Origin: a virus | DNA: 27,699 nucleotides | Strand: one strand, 5' to 3' | Virus record (IMG/VR): IMGVR_UViG_3300037264_008178 | Coordinates: 1 to 27,699 of that record | In this document: positions 8,819-26,784 of the stretch, one piece after another | Layout: each line of letters starts with the position of its first letter | Position numbering within the stretch: the stretch's first letter is position 1 | Made by a program: the position numbers and the translations under genes | The notes under the pieces: model-generated | Databases searched by the model: none | Seen by the model: only the letters and a program-made list of their open reading frames with translations | What the model was told of the DNA's origin: nothing

Positions 8819-8839
8819 CGCTTCCTCTCCCTGTTAGGG

Positions 8840-8929
8840 TTGGGGCACGTTTCAAACGTGCCCTTACTGGTTGGGGCACGTTTCGATCGTGCCCTTACTG
8901 GTTGGGGCACGTTTCAAACGTGCCCTTAC
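8840..8929 (+). repeat. Three palindromic units, GGGCACG arms, 31-bp period
   Basis: Units at 8840-8867, 8871-8898 and 8902-8929 each consist of TTGGGGCACG, a TTTCAAA-type loop and CGTGCCCTTA. The middle one has TTTCGAT in place of TTTCAAA. They fill the gap between gp46 and baseplate J. No T-run follows the stem on either strand, so they are not ordinary terminators. Confidence 0.9.
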
Positions 8930-10853: not shown

Positions 10854-12147
10854 ATATTTTTACCTCTCCACAGGCGAACGTCGGATTCTGAATATCGTTG
10901 ATTGCTACTATCTTTTCCAAATACCTGTAGGGAAGACCGTACCTGCGACACAGCACATGCACGGGGGTTATGACTCCCGATGTATCAACAGTTATTATCC
11001 TATCCCGCTGTAACTTTATATTCGTTACATGGTTTTCGAGGGCGGCTGCCATAGTTTTCATCGCGATCATATTTTCACGATTGACATTTAATCCTTCCAG
11101 AAGCATGATACGCGCCATGTACAGGCTATTTTCCAATTCGTTTGAACAGTAGAGGCCGACAGCATCGGCCGTTGCTGTGAGGCGTCCCATATTATCAAAC
11201 GAATTAATTTCAATGTTTTTTTCAAACGCAGCCTGCAGTTGCTCGTCGCTATTATACAAATAGCCGACACACACGCCACAACTCAGGGCTGCACATATAC
11301 TTGTTGAATTTACAATAATCGCTTTGACCGATTCATCTTCCGACTCATTGCTGAATAGTTTTTTAAGATCGTTTACAGCGCTTTTGAATGACGCTACAAA
11401 AGAAGATGGTGATGACTCGACGCTATTCTTTGCGGCAGCGATACGCTCTACAGCTTGGGCGATTGATCCGACAACTCTTCCCGGCAGCCGGGTGCCAAAA
11501 TCAATTGCGCCAATTATTGCGTCTGCCGGCAAAGCTATCTCTTCCATATAATAATCAATTACCCCTAGCATTCTATCCATATCCGCAACCATATTTCTCA
11601 CCGTACTGGCAAAGCTTCCGCACTGTGACAATAATGGTATGCCAACGTCAAAATTTATGGTTTTGCTCAGCAGTCCTTTTGAATTCAATCCGAGTTCATT
11701 CTCTACGTCAGCCTCGAACGCTCCCATAGCCTGTGTTATACCGCTTGTATAGGCAGAATTAACCTGTGATACAATGTTTACAACTGTGGGAACCTCTTCG
11801 CCTAGTTTTTGCTCGATAAATGTAATCGTTATTGTCACGAAATTTTTCCGCTCGTCATGACGGACTCGCGGGTTCGAAATACGGCCCATGATGGAGCCGT
11901 ACCGGGGATGAACCAGCTCATAGAGTAAGCCGGAGCGGATATGTTCTAAAAATTCATAATGATTGTTGTACTTACTCTTGTTAAAAATGCAATCAAACGT
12001 TATTCTCCTGGCCTTCTCGCCCATATAATCCAATGCAGCTCCGTCGGCAAACGGATACGTATATTCGGCAATCGAGTTCTCGAACGTGTCTTCGATTTCC
12101 AGCATTTCCAAGACAAATGAATCAATCCTGGCTACAAAACTCGGCAT
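10840..12147 (-). CDS. N: Mu gpN (gp43)-like protein with C-terminal LysM domain
   Basis: The 435-residue protein is the gpN-like 'DNA circularisation protein' family member, in practice a baseplate hub or tail-tube terminator component. The N-terminal region (about 1-110) has FVLEMLEIEDTFENSIAEY and LDYMGEKARRITFDCIF, typical of the family, followed by a long helical middle section. The last 50 residues (ITPVHVLCRRYGLPYRYLEKIVAIND, quoted in part) are a LysM-like peptidoglycan-binding module, as in related baseplate proteins. The start overlaps the tape-measure stop (TAATG at 12145-12149). Confidence 0.8.
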   Translation of the reverse strand: MPSFVARIDSFVLEMLEIEDTFENSIAEYTYPFADGAALDYMGEKARRITFDCIFNKSKYNNHYEFLEHIRSGLLYELVHPRYGSIMGRISNPRVRHDERKNFVTITITFIEQKLGEEVPTVVNIVSQVNSAYTSGITQAMGAFEADVENELGLNSKGLLSKTINFDVGIPLLSQCGSFASTVRNMVADMDRMLGVIDYYMEEIALPADAIIGAIDFGTRLPGRVVGSIAQAVERIAAAKNSVESSPSSFVASFKSAVNDLKKLFSNESEDESVKAIIVNSTSICAALSCGVCVGYLYNSDEQLQAAFEKNIEINSFDNMGRLTATADAVGLYCSNELENSLYMARIMLLEGLNVNRENMIAMKTMAAALENHVTNIKLQRDRIITVDTSGVITPVHVLCRRYGLPYRYLEKIVAINDIQNPTFACGEVKIYERP

Positions 12148-13946
12148 TAGCGGGCCTCCGGATGCTGGAAATAATCCTCGATAAACGTTTCGCTGTGTAC
12201 GATACTGTCATCCGGCAAATCCCTGACAGCAGCCCCGTACATCTTTCCCTCTTTATCAAATTTCAAATCCATCCTGATATTGTTTCTCAGCGATACCGAC
12301 GGCATAGCAGACGCCGACGTTTTTCTGCCAGTATCCAGAACTCTTGAAAAACCTGCCTGCCCGGCAAAGTTTCGATCTGCCTTTTCCTGCTTCATCAATC
12401 GGGCTTCATTTTGTATTACTTTTGCTGCCGCGACCACAGCAACGCCGATCAGCGCAATATTGCCCATAGTCTGTATTAAATTACCCATTCCCATTTTCGT
12501 TTTTGCCGCGTCTTCCAATTTAGTAAATTCCTGGAAGCTCCCCCCTGAAGCTGATCCCATGCCAGCCATACCATTAACGACCCACACCGGAGTCGCTCCG
12601 CCATACTTGCCTAGCGCCCCACCCATAGCGCCGCCCAGTCCACCTTTGCCTTTCAATAATCCTGCCATGCCCAAACCGATCTTACCAATCTTATATACCG
12701 CAAAAATCCCAAGCAGTACCTTCCAATGCTCAATCGCCTTGCCCAGCCAGCCCACCATTTCACCGATAGCTTTGCCGAGTGATTGAAACCTGGCGTCGAG
12801 TTGCTTGAGTTTTTCGGGATTTGCAAGCAGTGTCTGCATCGCGGCGTTTATTTTTTGTAAAGACGGGAACATCGACGATTCACCCAGCTTTTCTCCTAAG
12901 GCTACCATCCTGCCCAACTGGGCAGATATGCTCTGCATGGACGTCTCAAAGTATCGTGCAATCGTGCCGTCGTAACTACCAAGCACAAATTCGTCGAGCC
13001 GTTCAAACTTCCCGGTCTTACGGAATGCTGATGACAGTTGCGATACCGCGCGTATACCCATCTCACCAAAAATATCCTGGAGCTTCGCCTCATCACCTTT
13101 TGCCGCCTTAACAACACCTTTGAGCATTTCATCAAGAGGTTTGAACTTGCCCTTATCGTCACGAATATCAAATCCAATTTTAATCTTTATCTGTTTTTCT
13201 TTTTCGATCAGCGCTGATAGTGTCCGCTCGACTGCTGTCGTTGCTTCCTCCGCAGTTCCAGTCCCGGCCATAGCAATCTGAGAAAATGCTCCGATTCTTC
13301 TTAAATCATTTTCGCCTGTCATATTCAACCTGGCAGCCGTTGAAAATAATCGCGGGGCAAGACCTGCGAGATTTTTGAGAGTGTATGCGCCCGCCTCCCC
13401 CTGCCCTGTTAGAATGTCAAGCGCAGCCATTAATCCTTCCGGCTTTATATTGAATTTTTCGTCAAGTTGCGATGCTAATCCGCCAAGGTCAACCATCTCT
13501 GCCCCGGTTGCACGTGAGGCTATTGCCAAATCATTAAATGTCGCAACTGCAAATTTGACATTTCCAGTACGCTCAATGATTTGGTTCATGCCTGTAACAA
13601 TATCGGACCTCGACAGTCCAGTCTGCAGGGCAACCTGAAACGTCTCTTCCCGAAGCCCCATCAGAGCCTTCCTGGTCATATTTCCCTGGTTACCCAGCCT
13701 AATGAGTTGTTCGTCAAATTTGATTATATTTCGCCCCAGGGCAAATAGACCCGCAGTTCCTCCTACAAGGCCAAGCTGTCCGGGAATTGATCCGAGCGAC
13801 CGCTTAATTCCTGCGGTCATGCCCATCATCATTGTTCGGGTGCGTGTCGTAAATGATTGTACTTCGCGGGAGCCTGCATTCAGGCCAGAGCGGAGGCGGG
13901 ATACATTGGCGCCTAATACCAGTTCAGCATTAAAATCACGCGCCAT
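12147..13946 (-). CDS. Tail tape measure protein
   Basis: The 599-residue protein sets tail length and probably threads through the tube. It has the TP901-type core: GLREETFQVALQTGLS followed by ATGAEMVDLGGLASQLDEKF, then GEMGIRAVSQL near residue 290. A central hydrophobic region (about residues 410-440, HWKVLLGIFAVYKIGKIGLG) and a Gly-rich segment are compatible with membrane insertion at injection. A second hydrophobic run (LIGVAVVAAAKVI) follows. It is preceded by the frameshifted chaperone gene, as is usual in long-tailed phages, and an AGGGG ribosome site precedes the start. It is short for a tape measure, which would predict a modest tail length. Confidence 0.85.
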   Translation of the reverse strand: MARDFNAELVLGANVSRLRSGLNAGSREVQSFTTRTRTMMMGMTAGIKRSLGSIPGQLGLVGGTAGLFALGRNIIKFDEQLIRLGNQGNMTRKALMGLREETFQVALQTGLSRSDIVTGMNQIIERTGNVKFAVATFNDLAIASRATGAEMVDLGGLASQLDEKFNIKPEGLMAALDILTGQGEAGAYTLKNLAGLAPRLFSTAARLNMTGENDLRRIGAFSQIAMAGTGTAEEATTAVERTLSALIEKEKQIKIKIGFDIRDDKGKFKPLDEMLKGVVKAAKGDEAKLQDIFGEMGIRAVSQLSSAFRKTGKFERLDEFVLGSYDGTIARYFETSMQSISAQLGRMVALGEKLGESSMFPSLQKINAAMQTLLANPEKLKQLDARFQSLGKAIGEMVGWLGKAIEHWKVLLGIFAVYKIGKIGLGMAGLLKGKGGLGGAMGGALGKYGGATPVWVVNGMAGMGSASGGSFQEFTKLEDAAKTKMGMGNLIQTMGNIALIGVAVVAAAKVIQNEARLMKQEKADRNFAGQAGFSRVLDTGRKTSASAMPSVSLRNNIRMDLKFDKEGKMYGAAVRDLPDDSIVHSETFIEDYFQHPEAR

Positions 13947-13962
13947 ATATTCCCCTTTTTCG

Positions 13963-14095
13963 TTGGGGCGGGTTTCAAACCCGCCCTTACCTCGTTGTTG
14001 GGGCTGGTTTCAAACCCGCCCTTACCTCGTTGTTGGGGCTGGTTTCAAACCCGCCCTTACCTCGTTGTTGGGGCTGGTTTCAAACCAGCCCTTAC
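13963..14095 (+). repeat. Four palindromic units, 35-bp period, with compensatory arm change
   Basis: Units at 13963-13990, 13998-14025, 14033-14060 and 14068-14095. Unit 1 has arms GGGCGGG/CCCGCCC, unit 4 has GGGCTGG/CCAGCCC, both fully paired. Units 2 and 3 have GGGCTGG/CCCGCCC with one mismatch, and so are intermediates. The array lies directly behind the stop of the frameshifted chaperone product. Confidence 0.9.
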
Positions 14096-14100
14096 CTCGT

Positions 14101-14684
14101 TTATGGTTTTTCTATATGATAGGTTTCCGCATCGTTGCCGGTATCCGTTCCCGGCTCTTTATGTTCAAGCTGGTTGAATGCAACCAGCATCATCAGTTGC
14201 GCTTCGGTAATCTCTGCAGACGGCCTGCCAAAGTAATAATAAGCCTTCTCAGCACATACATATCTGAGATATTCAATACTATTTGAGAATTTTTTTTTAT
14301 GTCCTCGATCAACGCATCAACCTCTTTATCGGACATTTCAGCAATTTTGGGCGAGCACTCGGCCTGAAACGAATTTTGCTGATCGATCAGCGACTTACGA
14401 ATCTCGGAACTAATACATGAACAGAATACGTCAAAATCATCAAAAACCCGCCTTCCATCCCCGTCCACAATAGCAAGATACAGGCAGTACGAGTCCTTAA
14501 GAGCATTGCGTTCATCGATATTGCCCAGGGATAGCGACCGCTCTCTATACGCTCCGTCACAGTACTGCTCTGCCCGCAGAGAATCCATTTCTGACAGTAT
14601 TCTTAGATATATGTCCTGATCCGAGCCCGGCCACGTGGTGAGTTTACAGTTAGTAATCCCGTTTTTTATCTTTGTTATATCCAT
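14101..14684 (-). CDS. Tail assembly chaperone, -1 frameshifted long product (gp41'-like)
   Basis: A second frame overlaps the end of the gp41-like gene. At the run of nine A residues (14290-14298 on the plus strand, as T) the zero frame reads ATA AAA AAA AAT, giving the slippery heptamer A AAA AAA. A -1 slip there leads to 63 codons with no stop, ending at a TAA at 14101-14103, for a 194-residue protein (131 shared residues plus FSNSIEYLRYVCAEKAYYYF, FGRPSAEITEAQLMMLVAFN and a charged tail). Lambda gpG/GT and Mu gp41/41' use the same device just upstream of the tape measure. This reading frame has no plausible start of its own. I see no database check for this, only the sequence and the position. 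Confidence 0.8.
14193..14684 (-). CDS. Mu gp41-like tail assembly chaperone (zero-frame product)
   Basis: The 163-residue protein lies between the tail tube and tape measure genes, the place of Mu gp41 and lambda G. It is helical and acidic in the middle (DDFDVFCSCISSEIRKSL, SDKEVDALIEDIKK). Its role is inferred to be wrapping the tape measure during assembly. The zero-frame tail after the slippery run (residues 132-163) is basic and without features, as expected if the -1 product is the functional partner. Rare Cys residues are clustered in CSC. Two repeat-rich gaps flank the gene. Confidence 0.75.
   Translation of the reverse strand: MDITKIKNGITNCKLTTWPGSDQDIYLRILSEMDSLRAEQYCDGAYRERSLSLGNIDERNALKDSYCLYLAIVDGDGRRVFDDFDVFCSCISSEIRKSLIDQQNSFQAECSPKIAEMSDKEVDALIEDIKKNSQIVLNISDMYVLRRLIITLAGRLQRLPKRN
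14290..14298 (-). promoter_or_regulatory. Slippery A-run for programmed -1 frameshift
   Basis: Nine consecutive A residues in the minus-strand transcript, read ATA AAA AAA AAT in the zero frame. The heptamer A AAA AAA is the classical bacterial -1 slippery sequence. I did not find an obvious strong downstream stem-loop by eye. Confidence 0.8.
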
Positions 14685-14707: not shown

Positions 14708-14834
14708 TTGGGGCGGGTTTTAAACCCGCCCTTACTACTGCTATATACGGGCTAGTCTGAATCCAGCACCCATTGTACGGGCGGACTTCCAACCCGCCAC
14801 CTAATGTACGGGCGGGTTTCTAACCCGCCCCTTA
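14708..14834 (+). repeat. Palindromic units (three intact, one degenerate), last one overlaps a stop codon
   Basis: Units at 14708-14735 (loop TTTTAAA), about 14745-14774 (degenerate, GGGCTAG ... CCAGCACCC), 14776-14803 and 14807-14834. The last unit ends CCGCCCCTTA; its TTA (14832-14834) is the reverse complement of the TAA stop of the tail tube gene. Confidence 0.85.
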
Positions 14835-15194
14835 TTTATCGCTCCGGCTACCCGCAAATACCGTAATTGTTTTAACCAGCTCATTTTCTCCGTCGATTGT
14901 TTCACCGCCGATATTCAGACATTTGCAGTCTCCAAACTGATATGAGCCTCCGCCAAACTTGGTAACCTTCACGACTGCGGTACCGTCCAGCGTAGCCTCG
15001 AAATCAAACTCGGTCTGACCTTTGGGAGGTACATAGTCGATTGTAAATGAATTTTCAGGCGTGACGTCCGCGTAATCGGTAAAATTCATCAGCTTCACGA
15101 TCTTGGAGATTTCGCGATCGTTCGTTTTAAAATTCTTGAAATCCCGCATTTCCGATCCGTTAATGAATATTCTACAGCGTGATACTCTGGGCAT
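14832..15194 (-). CDS. M: Tail tube protein (Mu gpM-like)
   Basis: The 120-residue protein is the tube subunit over which the sheath slides. It has the gpM family order: an N-terminal RIFINGSEM strand, IVKLMNFTDYADVTPENSFTIDYV, FDFEATLDGTAVVKVTKFGG, and a final GENELVKTITVFAG strand. It follows the sheath gene in the usual order. A TTAAGGAG ribosome site stands at the right distance from the ATG. Its TAA stop is formed by the terminal bases of an adjoining palindrome unit. Confidence 0.85.
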   Translation of the reverse strand: MPRVSRCRIFINGSEMRDFKNFKTNDREISKIVKLMNFTDYADVTPENSFTIDYVPPKGQTEFDFEATLDGTAVVKVTKFGGGSYQFGDCKCLNIGGETIDGENELVKTITVFAGSRSDK

Positions 15195-15332: not shown

Positions 15333-16760
15333 TTAAATTAATCTTATCGTATTCACAATCTGATGCAATCCCGGCACGATATCCGCCGGTATGTCTACAT
15401 TACACCGTCCGGCTACTGATGAACTGGGTGTGGCTACAATGCCGTCCCGGTTTGCATCGACATTCTGAGTTACTTCAAACTCTTCGGTTTCCGCCTTCTT
15501 TAAAACCGCATAGACACTGTCCTGTAGATTTTCCCGCGTAGTTGCTGAGTTTTTGGCGTTTTTGTAATTGTTTCGCTCCATGTTGTTTATCTGTATTCGC
15601 AGCCAGTCAAGCGCACGCGGCACGGTCAGGTCGGTGAGCTTGTCTACATACCCACCCCCCGCATTGGAGATATATGTTGAACGAGCCATGACAATAGCGG
15701 CTTGTTCATTCAGAGAATGAAGCGGTGAGCCTCCGTTAAGTATAATCGCGTTCTTTTGTGTTTCGAGGAGTCTGTCCACTACTTCGGGAACGTCGATACC
15801 GGGAACGATATAATCGTCTATAGTATCGCCGGGACGAGGTTGTGTGCAGATAACCGCTGCGCATGCCGCACCGAGTTCGTAGTACGTGCTTCGTATGCCG
15901 GACAAATAAAATCCGAAAGTACGATAGTGATTGTAGGTGCTGGTCAGGCTGTTAAATGCCGCCAGATTATCCACCTTGTCCGTATAACCAAAAACCTGTA
16001 TACACCCGCGCTGCTCATCGCCATCGGACAGATCGTCAATATGGGTTTTCATAGCGACCATATTTGAACTTGCTCCGACGTCAAGATATGGATTGACATA
16101 AATTGTATAATCCGCCGGATATAGTATCGCGAGTATCCCGCTGACCGCATCCAGATCGGCGGCTCCTGAACCCGGAGTCGTGGTCGCGATAACCGTGGTT
16201 ACCCCGCTGGGAAATACAGTGTTTTCAATCCGTACGTATGTGCTATGCAGTCCTTTGTTTACACAAGTAATAGTTACGACACCGATGGCCGAGGTCGCGG
16301 TAAACGGCTGTTCAAGATTCGCATTTATCGCAGCAGCCAATCGTGTCGCGATTGTCGTCGGAGTGTCAGCCGCAACTATCGCAATCTCTATCTTCTCTGC
16401 GCCTATATATAATGTATAGGCTCCATCGACTACTGTACCTACAGTTATTGTGATAGTTTTTATGCTGGCGACTCCGGCTCCGGGATCCGCAATCGGCATG
16501 ACCCATACATTCGCCTTTGGATTCGCACGAAGAAACGCCCTGGCTACCTGGTACGCCATTGAGTGGCTTCCAAATCGTGTGCGGCATGTCGGTATATCAA
16601 ATATTTGTTCTGGCACATTCGATGTACAGAGACCGGCCGACGTATGCTGCGCCAGTAAAATTACCTTATCACCTACCGGCACAAAACCGGCAGCTTGGGA
16701 TACAAGATCGAAAAAGGAGTATACCCCGGGAACCTTATACTGTACTGACAACGTGTTCAT
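15333..16760 (-). CDS. L: Tail sheath protein (Mu gpL-like)
   Basis: The 475-residue sheath subunit contracts to drive the tube into the host envelope. The start YKVPGVYSFFDLVSQAAGFVP and the VILLAQHTSAG segment are typical, followed by MAYQVARAFLRANPKANVWVMPI. A middle beta region (about residues 110-205, GVASIKTITITVGTVVDGAYT) is probably an outward-facing domain. The C-terminal half has the sheath family's TQPRPGDTIDDYIVPGIDVPE block, LTDLTVPRALDWLRIQINNME and the C-terminal strand NVDIPADIVPGLHQIVNTIRL. Size fits gpL (about 495 residues). A GGAAAG site precedes the start. Confidence 0.9.
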   Translation of the reverse strand: MNTLSVQYKVPGVYSFFDLVSQAAGFVPVGDKVILLAQHTSAGLCTSNVPEQIFDIPTCRTRFGSHSMAYQVARAFLRANPKANVWVMPIADPGAGVASIKTITITVGTVVDGAYTLYIGAEKIEIAIVAADTPTTIATRLAAAINANLEQPFTATSAIGVVTITCVNKGLHSTYVRIENTVFPSGVTTVIATTTPGSGAADLDAVSGILAILYPADYTIYVNPYLDVGASSNMVAMKTHIDDLSDGDEQRGCIQVFGYTDKVDNLAAFNSLTSTYNHYRTFGFYLSGIRSTYYELGAACAAVICTQPRPGDTIDDYIVPGIDVPEVVDRLLETQKNAIILNGGSPLHSLNEQAAIVMARSTYISNAGGGYVDKLTDLTVPRALDWLRIQINNMERNNYKNAKNSATTRENLQDSVYAVLKKAETEEFEVTQNVDANRDGIVATPSSSVAGRCNVDIPADIVPGLHQIVNTIRLI

Positions 16761-16777: not shown

Positions 16778-16975
16778 TTGTTGGGACGTCCTTACTTTAT
16801 CATTTTCGGCTGTACGGGCGGGTTTCTAACCCGCCCCTACTTTATCATTTTCGGCTGTACGGGCGGGTTTCTAACCCGCCCTTACTTTATTATTTCCGGC
16901 TGTACGGGCGGGTTTCAAACCCGCCCTTACTTTATCATTTCCAGATGTACGGGCGGGTTTCTAACCCGCCCTTAC
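16778..16975 (+). repeat. Tandem array of 45-bp units: gene tail plus palindrome
   Basis: Four complete palindromes begin at 16812, 16857, 16902 and 16947, period 45. A remnant at 16778-16796 (TTGGGACGTCCTTAC) keeps only the two ends. The bases between palindromes repeat TTACTTTATCATTTCCGGC with small changes. The same 19 bases form the end of the gp38-like gene (codons for KPEMIK and the TAA stop, 16972-16990). The array therefore contains four extra copies of the 3' end of that gene. Confidence 0.9.
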
Positions 16976-17163
16976 TTTATCATTTCCGGCTTTACCGGTT
17001 TAACAACTTTTTTCTCTTTGAATATTCTCAGACTCCCGTCCGCAAGCATGGACATGCACAACTCGTCGAGCGGGACTTGTACAGGCAGAGTCCCGATGGT
17101 ACTGTGTCTGTCCCATGGATTGATAAACGGAGTATCTGTAATGACCATTATATATTCTTTCAT
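16972..17163 (-). CDS. Mu gp38-like small protein (DUF2635-like)
   Basis: A 63-residue protein located just before the sheath gene, the position of Mu gp38. It has the short plan of that family: PVQVPLDELCMSMLADGSLRIF (quoted in part), that is, an extended N-terminal strand region, a conserved LPV, and a DGSL turn. The function is not known in Mu either. It starts with an ATGA overlap with the upstream membrane protein gene. Its final residues KPEMIK and stop codon are the source of the repeated 3' segment in the tandem array. Confidence 0.65.
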   Translation of the reverse strand: MKEYIMVITDTPFINPWDRHSTIGTLPVQVPLDELCMSMLADGSLRIFKEKKVVKPVKPEMIK

Positions 17164-20105: not shown

Positions 20106-20161
20106 ACCTCTTTATTCCTTTCAGAATGTGTTTTATTTAAAAAAATGTTATTTACAAATCC

Positions 20162-20251
20162 GTACGGGCGGGCTTCAGACCCGCCCCCTGACGTACGGGC
20201 GGGTTTCTAACCCGCCCCCTGATGTACGGGCGGGTTTCTAACCCGCCCCCT
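20162..20251 (+). repeat. Three palindromic units, 31-bp period
   Basis: Units start at 20162, 20193 and 20224, each GTACGGGCGGG, loop, CCCGCCCCCT. The first has a GGGCTTCAGACCC centre with a changed loop and paired arms, the second and third TTTCTAA. They fill the space between capsid and the decoration-like gene. Confidence 0.9.
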
Positions 20252-21068: not shown

Positions 21069-21134
21069 CGTTTACCTCCTGGTAAATTTTTTGTATTTAT
21101 GAATTGTTGATACCCTTATCATTTATTTCCACCT

Positions 21135-21195
21135 GTTGGGGCACGTTTCTGTTGGGGCACGTTTCTGTTGGGGCACGTTTCAAACGTGCCCCTAC
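21135..21195 (+). repeat. Two half-units and one full palindrome (GGGCACG type)
   Basis: GTTGGGGCACGTTTCT appears at 21135-21150 and 21151-21166, without right arms. The third copy (21167-21195) is complete and ends CGTGCCCCTAC. The half copies have the same left end and break within the loop. Confidence 0.9.
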
Positions 21196-22566: not shown

Positions 22567-22962
22567 ATGCATTTTGACGCCACTTTGTTTACAACTGTAT
22601 ACCAGGTGATTGGATTGCCTGCGGCCTTGATGTTGATCTACTGGATAGCCATGAAATGGATGCATGACCAGGGTACTAAAATCAACGCAGATCGGATTGA
22701 GCATATCAGGAAGTGGGATAGTATGGTTCAGTCCTATGAAAAGCAGAACAAGCTACAGATACAGTCTCATCAGGATGAAATCGAGCGTATGTTCAAGTTG
22801 CATGAGCGCCAGACATGCGTATCCGAAATGAATGCTGCTGAGCTAATTAAGATAACTGAGGGAGTTCGGCAGATTCATGATTGTATACAGAAACTGTCGC
22901 CCAAAGTTATCGGCACCAGCCCGGCTCCAAATAACCAGCACGGATATTCAAATTCATTTTAA
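22567..22962 (+). CDS. Membrane-anchored coiled-coil protein (Mu gp25-like position)
   Basis: The 131-residue protein has an N-terminal membrane helix (about residues 5-25, LFTTVYQVIGLPAALMLIYW) followed by a long charged helix (about 35-95) rich in Glu, Lys and Gln. It is the first gene of the packaging operon, in the position of the Mu gp24/gp25 genes, of which gp25-like DUF2730 proteins have the same membrane-plus-coiled-coil layout. The function is not known; it might take part in lysis (holin or spanin-like) or in anchoring the prohead. GGAGA at 22558-22562 is the ribosome site. Confidence 0.6.
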   Translation: MHFDATLFTTVYQVIGLPAALMLIYWIAMKWMHDQGTKINADRIEHIRKWDSMVQSYEKQNKLQIQSHQDEIERMFKLHERQTCVSEMNAAELIKITEGVRQIHDCIQKLSPKVIGTSPAPNNQHGYSNSF

Positions 22963-22979
22963 CAATAGGGAGGATGTTA

Positions 22980-23225
22980 ATGCGTGAAGAGCTACTCAAA
23001 TATCGAGGCATGCTTGTCGAAACCGAACGAAAAATCGCTGAACTCGATGTTATCATCGCCGCAGACGTATCAAATGCCCGCTCACTGCTCAATCCGTTCC
23101 AGGAAGACCATACGCGGCTAGACACCGCCAAGGTAGTCGCCGTTGCAAACCGGATTCATGAGAATGTCGAGCTGCTACGTAAGGCTATGGAGAAAGCCGT
23201 TGAGCTGCGGGAGGCTATCGCATGA
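22980..23225 (+). CDS. Mu gp26-like small protein
   Basis: The start is set at 22980 because GGGAGG (22968-22973) is six bases upstream; the ATG at 22974 follows the site with no gap and is unlikely. The 81-residue product is helical: LLKYRGMLVETERKIAELDVII, then a polar turn, and ENVELLRKAMEKAVELREAI. It resembles the gp26 slot between gp25 and the terminase small subunit in Mu. Role unknown. Its stop overlaps the next start (ATGA). Confidence 0.6.
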   Translation: MREELLKYRGMLVETERKIAELDVIIAADVSNARSLLNPFQEDHTRLDTAKVVAVANRIHENVELLRKAMEKAVELREAIA

Positions 23226-23662
23226 AACGACAGATACTCGAACCCATTGCGGAGCGTATGTATGTCGTTGACCAGATGACTCTGAACACCATTTCAACTG
23301 ACCTTAAACTCGCAGAGAAAACTGTTTGGACTTGGAAACAGGATGGCAACTGGGATGTAAAACGCGACCAATATCTGAAAACAAAAACCGACTTCCATGC
23401 CGACCTTTATAATTTTGCACGCAAACTGATGAAACTGATCGACATGGACATGGAGCGCATGATCGAGTCGCCGCTTGTTGGCGATGAAGAACGCGATAAG
23501 CGCCTGGAGTCCCGTATCAACTCCATGAGCCGGCTACTCGACAAATTACCCAAAACCAAAGATTACGAAAGCAAAATCAAAAACGAAGCCGAAGCCGAGA
23601 ACCGAGCCGACGTCTCCGGCGACGCCATTGCGCAAAAAGTCAAGGAGATACTAGGCGGATAA
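23222..23662 (+). CDS. Terminase small subunit (DUF1804-like, Mu gp27 position)
   Basis: The 146-residue protein has an N-terminal helix-turn-helix: ERMYVVDQMTLNTISTDLKLAEKTVWTWKQDGNWDVKRDQY, that is the A-x-x-Y-V pattern, a turn, a recognition helix with T-V-W-x-W-K, and the W-D-x-x-R closing motif of phage small terminase proteins. The rest is helical. It should bind DNA and load the large subunit. It is next to the large subunit gene and translated from an ATGA overlap with the upstream gene. Confidence 0.8.
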   Translation: MKRQILEPIAERMYVVDQMTLNTISTDLKLAEKTVWTWKQDGNWDVKRDQYLKTKTDFHADLYNFARKLMKLIDMDMERMIESPLVGDEERDKRLESRINSMSRLLDKLPKTKDYESKIKNEAEAENRADVSGDAIAQKVKEILGG

Positions 23663-23670
23663 CAATAACC

Positions 23671-23787
23671 GTACGGGCGGGTTTTCCTTAACCCGCCCCG
23701 TACACCATAACCGTACCGGCGGGTTTTCCTTAACCCGCCCCGTACACCATAACCGTACCGGCGGGTTTTCCTTAACCCGCCCTGTAC
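23671..23787 (+). repeat. Three palindromic units, 42-bp period
   Basis: Units start at 23671, 23713 and 23755 with GTACGGG or GTACCGG, loop TTTTCCTTAA, and arms GGCGGG/CCCGCC. The right ends read CCCCGTAC or CCCTGTAC. The second and third left ends carry GTACCGG where the first has GTACGGG, so one pair in the arm is lost. They lie between the terminase subunit genes, with spacers of about ten bases that also repeat (CACCATAACC). Confidence 0.9.
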
Positions 23788-23804
23788 ACAATGACAACGA
23801 CATT

Positions 23805-25208
23805 ATGATAAAAGCACTCGAATCCTACTTCTTCAAATACCAACTCGACTACCTGGCCGACCGCTCCCGTATTAAGCTCCTGGAGAAATCCCGCCGTATC
23901 GGCGGCTCATACATGCAAGCCTTCGAGGATGTCGAAGACATCGTCACCCGTCGCGAGTATACCCCCGGACGTCCGGTCGAACGTATCTACTTTGCCTCAA
24001 AGGATGAACTCGCCGGTAGAGAATATATCGAATATTGCTACAAATGGGCAAAGATTTTCAACATAGCTGCAAAGGAACTCGGCACCGAAATCGTCGATGA
24101 AAAGACCGGAGCAAAGGCGTCTGTCATAGAATTTTCCAACGGTGGCAAGATATACGCCCTCTCGTCAAGCCCTACCGCCTTCAACTCCAAGGGCGGCAAA
24201 ATAGTCTGGGATGAAGCTGCTCTGCATAAGGACCAGCGCCAGATGTGGGCGGGCGCAAAACCTGCGTCGCTCTGGGGATATCCTATCCGGATACTCTCAA
24301 CGCACAAAGGCAAGAAAACCCTGTTTTATAAATTCTGCGAGGATGTTAAAAAGGGTAAGCTCAACTGGTCGCATCATATCGTTACCCTGCCGCGCGCTGT
24401 CAATGACGGACTCGCTGATAAAATCCTCGGACGCAAACTCACCGCTCAAGAACGCCTCGACTGGGTCGAGCAGCAACGAAAAGACTGTAACGACGACGAC
24501 ATCTTCAACGAGGATTTCCTGTGCCTGCCCGTAGACTCAACCACGGCTTACTTTTCCTATGAACTCATCGAGTCCTGTACTCGCGATAAAATATTGCTTC
24601 CCTTTGAGGAACTCAAAAACTGCAAAGGCCCGCTCTATGCAGGTTGGGACATTGCGCGGTACCGGGACATGTCCGTTGTAATTGTCCTGGAGAAATCCGC
24701 TGTGCAGTATATCGTGCGGCATATACGTATTATGGATAAAACTCCGACCCCGCTGCAGAAAAACATTGCCGATGAATTTCTCCGGCTGCCGAATCTCATG
24801 CGTATGTGTCTGGATCAGACAGGCATGGGTATTCCCATCACCGAAGACATGCAGAAATCTCACGGAGTCTACCGTGCTGAGGGCGTTACCTTTACGAATC
24901 AGGTAAAAGAGGTGCTGGCGACGTCTCTCAAAAACGCATTTGAGGACATCGCCGTCATTGTTCCCGACGATTATGTGCTCAAAGAATCTATGCACTCAAT
25001 CCAGAAAATTGTCACCGCTGCCGGCAATACCCGATATGATGCTGATCGTACGGATCAGACCGGGCATGCGGATATGTTCTGGGCGCTGGCGCTTGCCTAT
25101 CATGCCGCTGTTGATCCGTCAACCGGCCCTGCATGGGCATGCTCCACCAGTCCAATATTCACGTCTACCTATTCCGATTATAACAGTTCTATGTTGAAAC
25201 GATACTAA
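23805..25208 (+). CDS. terL: Terminase large subunit (Mu gp28-like)
   Basis: The 467-residue motor-nuclease packages DNA into the prohead. The N-terminal ATPase has a Walker A variant at EKSRRIGGS (residues 27-35) and a Walker B at GGKIVWDEAALH (near 130). The C-terminal nuclease shows LYAGWDIARYRDMSVVIVLE (first acidic strand), MRMCLDQTGMGIPITEDM, and QTGHADMFWALALAYHAA; this is the RNase H-like nuclease layout of Mu-type large terminases. Length fits the family. It follows a repeat-filled gap after the small subunit. Confidence 0.9.
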   Translation: MIKALESYFFKYQLDYLADRSRIKLLEKSRRIGGSYMQAFEDVEDIVTRREYTPGRPVERIYFASKDELAGREYIEYCYKWAKIFNIAAKELGTEIVDEKTGAKASVIEFSNGGKIYALSSSPTAFNSKGGKIVWDEAALHKDQRQMWAGAKPASLWGYPIRILSTHKGKKTLFYKFCEDVKKGKLNWSHHIVTLPRAVNDGLADKILGRKLTAQERLDWVEQQRKDCNDDDIFNEDFLCLPVDSTTAYFSYELIESCTRDKILLPFEELKNCKGPLYAGWDIARYRDMSVVIVLEKSAVQYIVRHIRIMDKTPTPLQKNIADEFLRLPNLMRMCLDQTGMGIPITEDMQKSHGVYRAEGVTFTNQVKEVLATSLKNAFEDIAVIVPDDYVLKESMHSIQKIVTAAGNTRYDADRTDQTGHADMFWALALAYHAAVDPSTGPAWACSTSPIFTSTYSDYNSSMLKRY

Positions 25209-25214
25209 TTATTT

Positions 25215-25240
25215 GTACGGGCTGGTTTCTAACCAGCCCA
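25215..25240 (+). repeat. Single palindromic unit (GGGCTGG type)
   Basis: GTACGGGCTGG, loop TTTCTAA, CCAGCCC. Perfectly paired variant of the family, lying in the 43-bp gap between terminase and portal, just before the AAAGGA ribosome site of the portal gene. Confidence 0.85.
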
Positions 25241-25251
25241 AAGGATAAACT

Positions 25252-26784
25252 ATGGCAGAAAATTTTATACAAAACGAGTCCAAACCCAAACTATCCCTTC
25301 TTCGCTCAGAGCTTGCTACGCGGGAAACTGCGTCATTTATCAGGGAGTTCTATGAAACGCTGCCCAACCCCGATCCTATCCTGCGCAAGGCCGGTATTTA
25401 TATCCAAACCCTGCGGGAAATCCGCCGCTACCCCCGTGTATCAAGCGCTATACGGAGTCGCAAGTCAGGATTCTTCAAGCGTAATACCCAGGTACTAGCC
25501 AACGACGCATCTCCCCAAACCGTCACCTTCATTGAAGACTGCCTGAAAAAAATCAATATGCGCACAGTCATTTCCGAGATACTGGATTATTTCGGATTCG
25601 GCTATCAGGTTAGCGAAATCGTCTGGCAGCAGGATGGACAGGACATTGTCCCCGTTAAAATCCAGGCTAAGCCGCAGGAGTGGTTTAAGTTCAATTCCCA
25701 GAACCATCTTCTATTCTGTCCGGAACTCGGACTTCCCACAGTCGTTGACAACTACAAATTTCTGCTCACACAGAACGAGGCCGACTATCTCAACCCCTAC
25801 GGCGTTGGCGCATACTCAGACTGCTTCTGGCCCGTAACATTTATCAAAGGCGGAATTAAATTCTGGGCGAGGTTTATTGAAAAATTCGGTATGCCGCACA
25901 TTGTCGGGAAAACCCCTCGTTCTACCGAAGACGCTGAGCGTAACAAGTTCTTAGCCGATCTTGTTGTCGCCATACAGAACAGTGCTACCGTTATTTCGGA
26001 TGACAAGGCCGTCGAATTTCACGAATCTGAACGGTCCTCGTCTACCGAAGCATACAAAGAATTTACCGCATATCACAATGCCGAAATAGCAATTGCAATC
26101 CTTGGGCACGAGGGCACGCTCACAGCCACGCCCGGAAAGCTGGGAAGCAGCGCTGACGCCATGCAAGCCCGCGACGATCTTATTGACTCGGATTGCATCG
26201 CCGTCGCCGCTACTATCAATATGCTTATCCGCTGGATTCTCGAACTTAATCCTCACCATGCGTCCGGCGGTATCCCGACCTATGACATTTACGAAGATGA
26301 ATTTGTTGACAAAACACTTGCCGAGCGTGATGAAATCCTCTCCCGCACCGGAATAAAATTCAAATCGCCCTATTATCAGAATGCCTATAATCTATCCGAA
26401 GATGATTTCGAGATTGCCACTCAATCACCTCAATCCGCCACATTCGCCGCCACTCCTACATCCCCCGTACGGGCGATATCCCCCGTACGGGCGGGTTTCA
26501 AACCCGCCCCGACCGCTCCCCAGCAAATCATCGCCAAAGCCGAATCGGAAATCTCCCACGACGAAATTATTGACACCGTGCGAAACATGGCTGAAAAGGC
26601 CGGTAGCTTGGAAGAATTTCAGGCCACACTCCTGGATTCCTATAAAGATTTTTCTGAATCCAAAACCGCCGCCCATATCCAGCAAGCCCTGACTACCGCC
26701 GATCTCGCCGGCCGCCTCGACATCGCCAATCTCGTACGGGCGGGTTTCAAACCCGCCCCCTCCACAGAGGCCCCGAATGCCTAA
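25252..26784 (+). CDS. Portal protein (Mu gp29-like, DUF935) carrying in-frame palindrome insertions
   Basis: The 510-residue portal forms the DNA entry ring. The N-terminal two thirds fit the DUF935 family: LRKAGIYIQTLREIRRYPRVSSAIRSRKSG, FGYQVSEIVW, INMLIRWILELN near residue 330, and GGIPTYDIYEDEFVD. From about residue 395 the sequence is different: two copies of the palindromic element are inserted in frame and add VRAGFKPAP (residues 412-420 and 495-503), with a partial copy at 406-408 (VRA). Between them is a helical charged segment of about 70 residues. So the portal carries an unusual tail that contains translated repeats, while the core fold is intact. An AAAGGA site precedes the start. 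Confidence 0.9.
   Translation: MAENFIQNESKPKLSLLRSELATRETASFIREFYETLPNPDPILRKAGIYIQTLREIRRYPRVSSAIRSRKSGFFKRNTQVLANDASPQTVTFIEDCLKKINMRTVISEILDYFGFGYQVSEIVWQQDGQDIVPVKIQAKPQEWFKFNSQNHLLFCPELGLPTVVDNYKFLLTQNEADYLNPYGVGAYSDCFWPVTFIKGGIKFWARFIEKFGMPHIVGKTPRSTEDAERNKFLADLVVAIQNSATVISDDKAVEFHESERSSSTEAYKEFTAYHNAEIAIAILGHEGTLTATPGKLGSSADAMQARDDLIDSDCIAVAATINMLIRWILELNPHHASGGIPTYDIYEDEFVDKTLAERDEILSRTGIKFKSPYYQNAYNLSEDDFEIATQSPQSATFAATPTSPVRAISPVRAGFKPAPTAPQQIIAKAESEISHDEIIDTVRNMAEKAGSLEEFQATLLDSYKDFSESKTAAHIQQALTTADLAGRLDIANLVRAGFKPAPSTEAPNA
26460..26513 (+). repeat. In-frame palindrome with a partial 18-bp duplication
   Basis: ATCCCCCGTACGGGCG occurs at 26460-26475 and 26478-26493 (period 18, six codons). 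The second copy continues into a full palindrome to 26511. Both keep the portal reading frame. Confidence 0.9.
26734..26760 (+). repeat. In-frame palindrome near the portal C-terminus
   Basis: GTACGGGCGGG, loop TTTCAAA, CCCGCCC. It encodes VRAGFKPAP near the end of the protein and is in the same reading phase as the copy at 26485. Confidence 0.9.

Follow-up and report, generated by a model that had tools for sequence, protein, structure and literature searches.

A Conserved Slip Site and a Dual-Coded Overlap Suggest Programmed -1 Frameshifting in a Tail Assembly Chaperone Gene of an Uncultured Mu-Like Phage

Results

Gene neighborhood and features of the chaperone locus

The stretch of DNA analyzed here, referred to as the window, is a 27,699-base record of an uncultured virus. 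It encodes a Mu-like portal (Portal_Mu, E = 1e-73) and a terminase, together with a contractile-tail sheath, a tape measure, and Mu-type baseplate proteins, and the phage is Mu-like and contractile-tailed. The terminase and portal genes lie on the plus strand (22567 to 26784) and the remaining head and tail genes on the minus strand (300 to 22368), which seems an unusual, divergent arrangement among Mu-like phages. The features that bear on the chaperone gene are the following.

12147-13946, minus strand: tape-measure protein, directly downstream of the chaperone (PhageMin_Tail Pfam, E = 8.8e-17; phrog_973, E = 1.3e-23)
13962-14101, no strand: 35-bp palindromic tandem repeat array (TRF, 4 copies, 98% matches)
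14101-14292, minus strand: putative -1 extension, 63 codons plus TAA at 14103-14101 (translation; homologous extension in 35 distinct loci)
14196-14292, minus strand: probable dual-coded overlap of the 0-frame tail (NSQIVLNISDMYVLRRLIITLAGRLQRLPKRN) and the -1 frame (..AEKAYYYFGRP..), from third-position divergence
14290-14298, minus strand: A9 run, with the candidate slip site A AAA AAA at 14298-14292 (sequence)
14193-14684, minus strand: predicted tail assembly chaperone, short 0-frame product of 163 aa (ORF; stop TGA at 14195-14193)
14832-15194, minus strand: tail tube protein, directly upstream of the chaperone (place conserved between sheath and chaperone)
15333-16760, minus strand: tail sheath (phrog_165, E = 3.6e-73; matches Mu-like sheaths)

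The order sheath, tube, chaperone, tape measure, and hub is common to those relatives whose flanks match, and the chaperone gene lies between the tube and tape-measure genes, which is the position of the lambda G/GT type. The tube protein is without a family match of its own; its counterpart at this position shares 62.5% identity with it in the related contig L017 and 31 to 39% in eight other relatives. Between the end of the extension and the start of the tape-measure gene sits the repeat array. The arrangement differs in another relative, L009, where the last part of the extension, which ends at 1622, overlaps with the ATG of the tape-measure gene at 1609. A plus-strand ORF of 194 aa (13702-14286), which runs antisense across the array, was treated as spurious.

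Many intergenic gaps of the window contain GC-rich palindromes of the GGGCGGGTTTGAAACCCGCCC type, related to one another and arranged in short tandem arrays with units of 16 to 45 bp.

8838-8929, 13962-14101, 14767-14829, 16790-16995, 20161-20251, 21133-21181, and 23665-23789: palindrome arrays (tandem repeats)

Similar copies of the palindrome occur within the frame of the portal gene near 26490 and 26740, where they are translated as VRAGFKPAP, and the repeat looks to have spread through the phage. Elsewhere, a 90-bp coding repeat (748-995; 2.8 copies, 96% matches) lies in the gene at 300-1121, which possibly encodes a tail-fiber-like protein.

Identity of the 0-frame product

By sequence alone, assignment of the 0-frame product as a chaperone is weak. 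The window's protein matches the PHROG 344 tail assembly chaperones weakly (E = 0.0024) and the L017 protein does so at E = 0.015, while the other ten family members scanned gave no match to PHROG 344 at the limit of 0.01. Pfam and PDB sequence searches with the chaperone produced no match, and tblastn at E values up to 1 found no homologue of the fusion in isolated phages. The chaperone family is new to the databases searched; Pfam lacks it and PHROGs give barely a match.

Structure is more telling. An AlphaFold model of the 0-frame product has a mean pLDDT of 84, and its top PDB match is the HK97 tail assembly chaperone 2OB9 (probability 1.00, E = 0.006, TMt 0.64). This is the best match among solved structures, yet the identity is 16% and the E value is moderate. 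Several named tail assembly chaperones are also among the top BFVD matches of the model, again with moderate E values. Position between tube and tape measure, taken with the fold match to 2OB9, makes a convincing though not overwhelming case for a tail assembly chaperone, and in this the earlier note, which had proposed such an identity, is supported.

Slip site and -1 extension

From 14300, the 0-frame codons of the gene (ATG at 14684) read ATA AAA AAA AAT, which puts the heptamer in X XXY YYZ phase. Translation of the -1 frame from 14292 gives KFSNSIEYLRYVCAEKAYYYFGRPSAEITEAQLMMLVAFNQLEHKEPGTDTGNDAETYHIEKP, a stretch of 63 codons, and the fusion would amount to 131 + 63 = 194 residues. The earlier note had described nine A's at 14290-14298 with A AAA AAA in phase, 63 codons of open -1 frame, and a TAA at 14101, and all of these coordinates proved correct; the 194-residue product that it predicted does end just before the repeat array, which starts at the stop codon. 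Peptides specific to the fusion would be those spanning the trans-frame junction around KKK-FSNSIEYLR and also FGRPSAEITEAQLMMLVAFNQLEHK. Structure prediction for the extension alone gave three helices and a low-confidence end.

Within the window this configuration is rare. The A9 at 14298-14290 is the sole run of at least nine A's on either strand. In-frame A AAA AA[A/G] occurs three times in the listed minus-strand genes, with the other two instances leading into 1 and 3 open -1 codons, and at least 63 open -1 codons are found at only 3.6% of minus-strand codon positions. Past the 0-frame stop, the codon-usage log-odds per codon are +0.21 for the -1 frame and -0.41 and -0.46 for the other frames, a suggestive result in that coding-like usage is confined there to the -1 frame. 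Rarity within the window and codon usage are thus suggestive, and it is conservation in relatives that we regard as the decisive evidence.

Conservation among relatives

Relatives were sought through IMG/VR scans, in one genome collection, and by profile searches of about 950 genomes. The first of the genome-contig scans gave no relatives and the second gave one Sideroxydans MAG, and a viral scan for close kin of the window's own clade returned nothing beyond the known L017 contig. We counted 41 loci, window included, of which 35 are distinct in the extension (the window and 34 distinct relatives). Most come from uncultured phages, with some prophage-like loci in bacterial genomes, and identity of their 0-frame products to that of the window runs from 44% (L017) down to 16% (L046).

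All 41 loci carry A AAA AAA or A AAA AAG in phase, and in all 41 the -1 frame is open and encodes a homologue of the window's extension. Loss of the A run and stops in the -1 frame, the two things that the earlier note had suggested looking for in relatives, were therefore seen in none. A fusion encoded in one single frame was likewise found in 0 of 41 loci, and the profile searches of genomes returned the two parts of the chaperone as two adjacent, frame-shifted matches. Across the loci, the 0-frame tail spans 30 to 39 codons and the -1 extension 54 to 87. Two loci, L064 and L065, were considered as cases without the site, a reading that was rejected, as their ATT/GTT AAA AAA AAG contains A AAA AAG one codon later.

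The length of the run varies among the 35 distinct loci, with A9 in 18 (window included), A8 in 14, and six A's followed by G in 3 (L045, L046, and L051). Because these last three have only A6G, the feature common to the family is the heptamer and not the length of the run. The extension itself bears the signature AEKA[YF]xYFGxPA..LTDGQW, which the A6G group keeps only in part (AE..., ITxGQ). This group is a distant one, with an N-terminal addition of ~45 residues and the minimal site A AAA AAG.

Selection on both frames

Twelve independent pairs of relatives were compared. Upstream of the slip site, their 0-frame third positions diverge by 0.47 (0.42 to 0.54 in each 15-codon bin), and in the overlap by only 0.14. 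Fisher tests of the overlap give P values of about 2e-31 when the upstream region is the reference and 4e-22 when the reference is restricted to the nearest 45 codons; the counts take sites as independent, so these values are indicative, and it is the size of the drop that matters. Just past the 0-frame stop, at codons 30 to 39 of the extension, divergence at positions 1/2/3 is 0.17/0.07/0.41, an ordinary coding-frame pattern with the periodicity of the -1 frame. The short product's own tail is conserved across loci as well (L[KR][RK]L..). Since third-position divergence falls in the overlap, both frames are under selection, and both frames of 14196-14292 are probably translated. The anatomy of the site and selection on both frames hold across the relatives.

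Discussion

The reading that we favor, with a probability of about 0.82, is a programmed -1 ribosomal frameshift of the lambda G/GT type, with two products arising by slippage at A AAA AAA. The majority of ribosomes would remain in the 0 frame as far as its stop codon at 14195-14193, yielding the 163-residue chaperone (G-type). A minority would move back one base, with two lysine tRNAs on A AAA AAA (14298-14292), and would read the -1 frame to 14101, yielding the GT-type product, which is 194 residues long and differs in its C-terminal segment. If the analogy with lambda applies, the part shared by both products would coat the tape-measure protein, tail-tube subunits would be recruited by the -1 segment, and the frequency of slippage would set the ratio of short and long product. 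What we infer is the slip itself, its ribosomal nature, how often it takes place, and what each product does. Low-level -1 shifting of this gene is conserved among long-tailed phages, and in lambda gpG binds the tape measure whereas the -1 encoded T part binds the tail-tube protein (PMC5009743). In two HK97-like chaperone genes, frameshifting was measured at 6 and 7% (PMC3711429).

We looked for an RNA element that might stimulate the shift. A conserved stimulator downstream of the site was not found, which tells against the ribosomal reading: single-sequence z-scores were -1.2 to +1.0, and the consensus fold downstream was not clearly better than that of codon-column shuffles. Individual hairpins just 3' of the site (such as UUCUCA/UGAGAA in the window) seemed promising but were rejected as candidates, being of no greater stability than shuffles and showing no consensus. 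A pseudoknot or a nonconserved stimulatory element may be involved. For frameshift chaperones in general, downstream stimulatory RNA structure is accessory and not obligatory.

Comparison with known systems places the window closest in kind to lambda, the slip site of which is G GGA AAG. The two differ in that the window phage is a contractile-tailed, Mu-like phage with the site A AAA AAA and shows no homology by sequence to an isolated phage. They are alike in having a chaperone between tube and tape measure, a low-level -1 slip near the 3' end (in the window, a predicted one), a slippery heptamer, and two products with different C-terminal domains (PMC5009743). The earlier note had likened the locus to both lambda G/GT and Mu 41/41'; the first likeness stands and the second is inexact. 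Mu gp41 shares the genomic position and role, but Mu chaperone gene 41 shifts by -2 (PMC5009743; PMC2628397), whereas the open, conserved frame of the window is -1, and sequence homology between the two is not detectable. Profile-profile comparison (hhalign) gave no homology to the Mu and SuMu chaperones (probability 0.1%), and neither the window nor its relatives match PHROG 508, although Mu, SuMu, and ST405 do.

Better parallels than Mu are the Mu-like isolates SuMu and ST405-OXA48phi1.1, which have the same sheath-tube-chaperone-tape measure order and an open -1 frame, with LKKK codons and A8 followed by G (A AAA AAG). The difference is that their chaperones belong to another sequence family, phrog_508 (E = 1e-30 to 1e-32). 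Both chaperones are annotated without a frameshift join, and in ST405-OXA48phi1.1 (L028, 5262-5770) and SuMu (L029, 5261-5841) the -1 extension is annotated in part, as a separate hypothetical gene. A long A/T run and two products from one gene are also features of Thermus thermophilus dnaX and Shigella type III genes (PMC5009743), but the window's family differs from these in keeping the ribosomal heptamer phase and in having some relatives with six A's only.

The second frame might be thought an artifact, either a homopolymer miscount in metagenome assembly or a frameshift mutation, with a real ORF of about 194 codons. Such an error would be typical of a homopolymer like A9, and the window comes from an uncultured virus record. 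Yet 34 further distinct loci, drawn from different samples and genomes, show the same phase and the same two-frame layout, their runs being 6, 8, or 9 long and their flanking bases varied, and the 0-frame tail is itself conserved and constrained. As both frames are constrained in the overlap, a sequencing error or a decayed gene is ruled out; this reading is refuted for the family, and we give it next to no credence. Nor is it at all probable that, in place of a fusion, an internal start in the -1 frame yields a small protein of its own. The frame is open and has late ATG codons in the extension (MM in QLMMLV), but the conserved part starts shortly past the slip site and ahead of any start codon, a conserved -1 frame Met is absent near the site in the aligned loci, and the extension continues directly from the slip codon in all of them.

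A weightier rival is transcriptional slippage, in which RNA polymerase adds an A (A10) and standard translation then enters the -1 frame. It is a live alternative because A9 is longer than a ribosome needs. The same two proteins would result, and ribosome and polymerase could both contribute. In vivo, slippage of bacterial polymerase is highly efficient where nine A or T stand in a row, and E. coli ribosomes slip less well at A AAA AAA than at A AAA AAG (PMC5009743). Two points consequently tell against the ribosomal reading: the poorer A AAA AAA is the first-position heptamer in 30 of the 35 distinct loci, and 8 or 9 A's are present in 32 of them, many GC-rich, where seven would suffice for the ribosome, a length that polymerase slippage would favor too. 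Only 16 other coding-strand runs of at least eight A's occur in the 257 kb of these loci. Several points speak against polymerase slippage. A long run seems dispensable to the arrangement, given the A6G of L045, L046, and L051, which is too short for slippage of the typical form, and the TT-A8-G of L064 and L065, which is in the classical A AAA AAG phase. The ribosomal X XXY YYZ phase is kept in 41 of 41 loci, and the tail-chaperone cases known so far are ribosomal. We consider transcriptional slippage improbable as the main mechanism. In the A8 and A9 members, window included, it is unlikely that the forms of the chaperone are set largely by polymerase slippage, or by polymerase and ribosome together; if they are, this tail-chaperone family would have changed mechanism while keeping its two-frame layout.

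The programmed ribosomal shift that we favor would be a mechanism of a well-known kind, in a chaperone family that was previously unannotated and for which the comparative evidence of -1 recoding is unusually clear. A hidden extension is now annotated in this family, the product of which ordinary gene callers would truncate. With 35 distinct instances, the conserved -1 recoding site and its strongly dual-coded overlap provide a test set for recoding predictors, and the occurrence of A6, A8, and A9 at one site offers a natural series bearing on where slippage by the ribosome yields to slippage by the polymerase.
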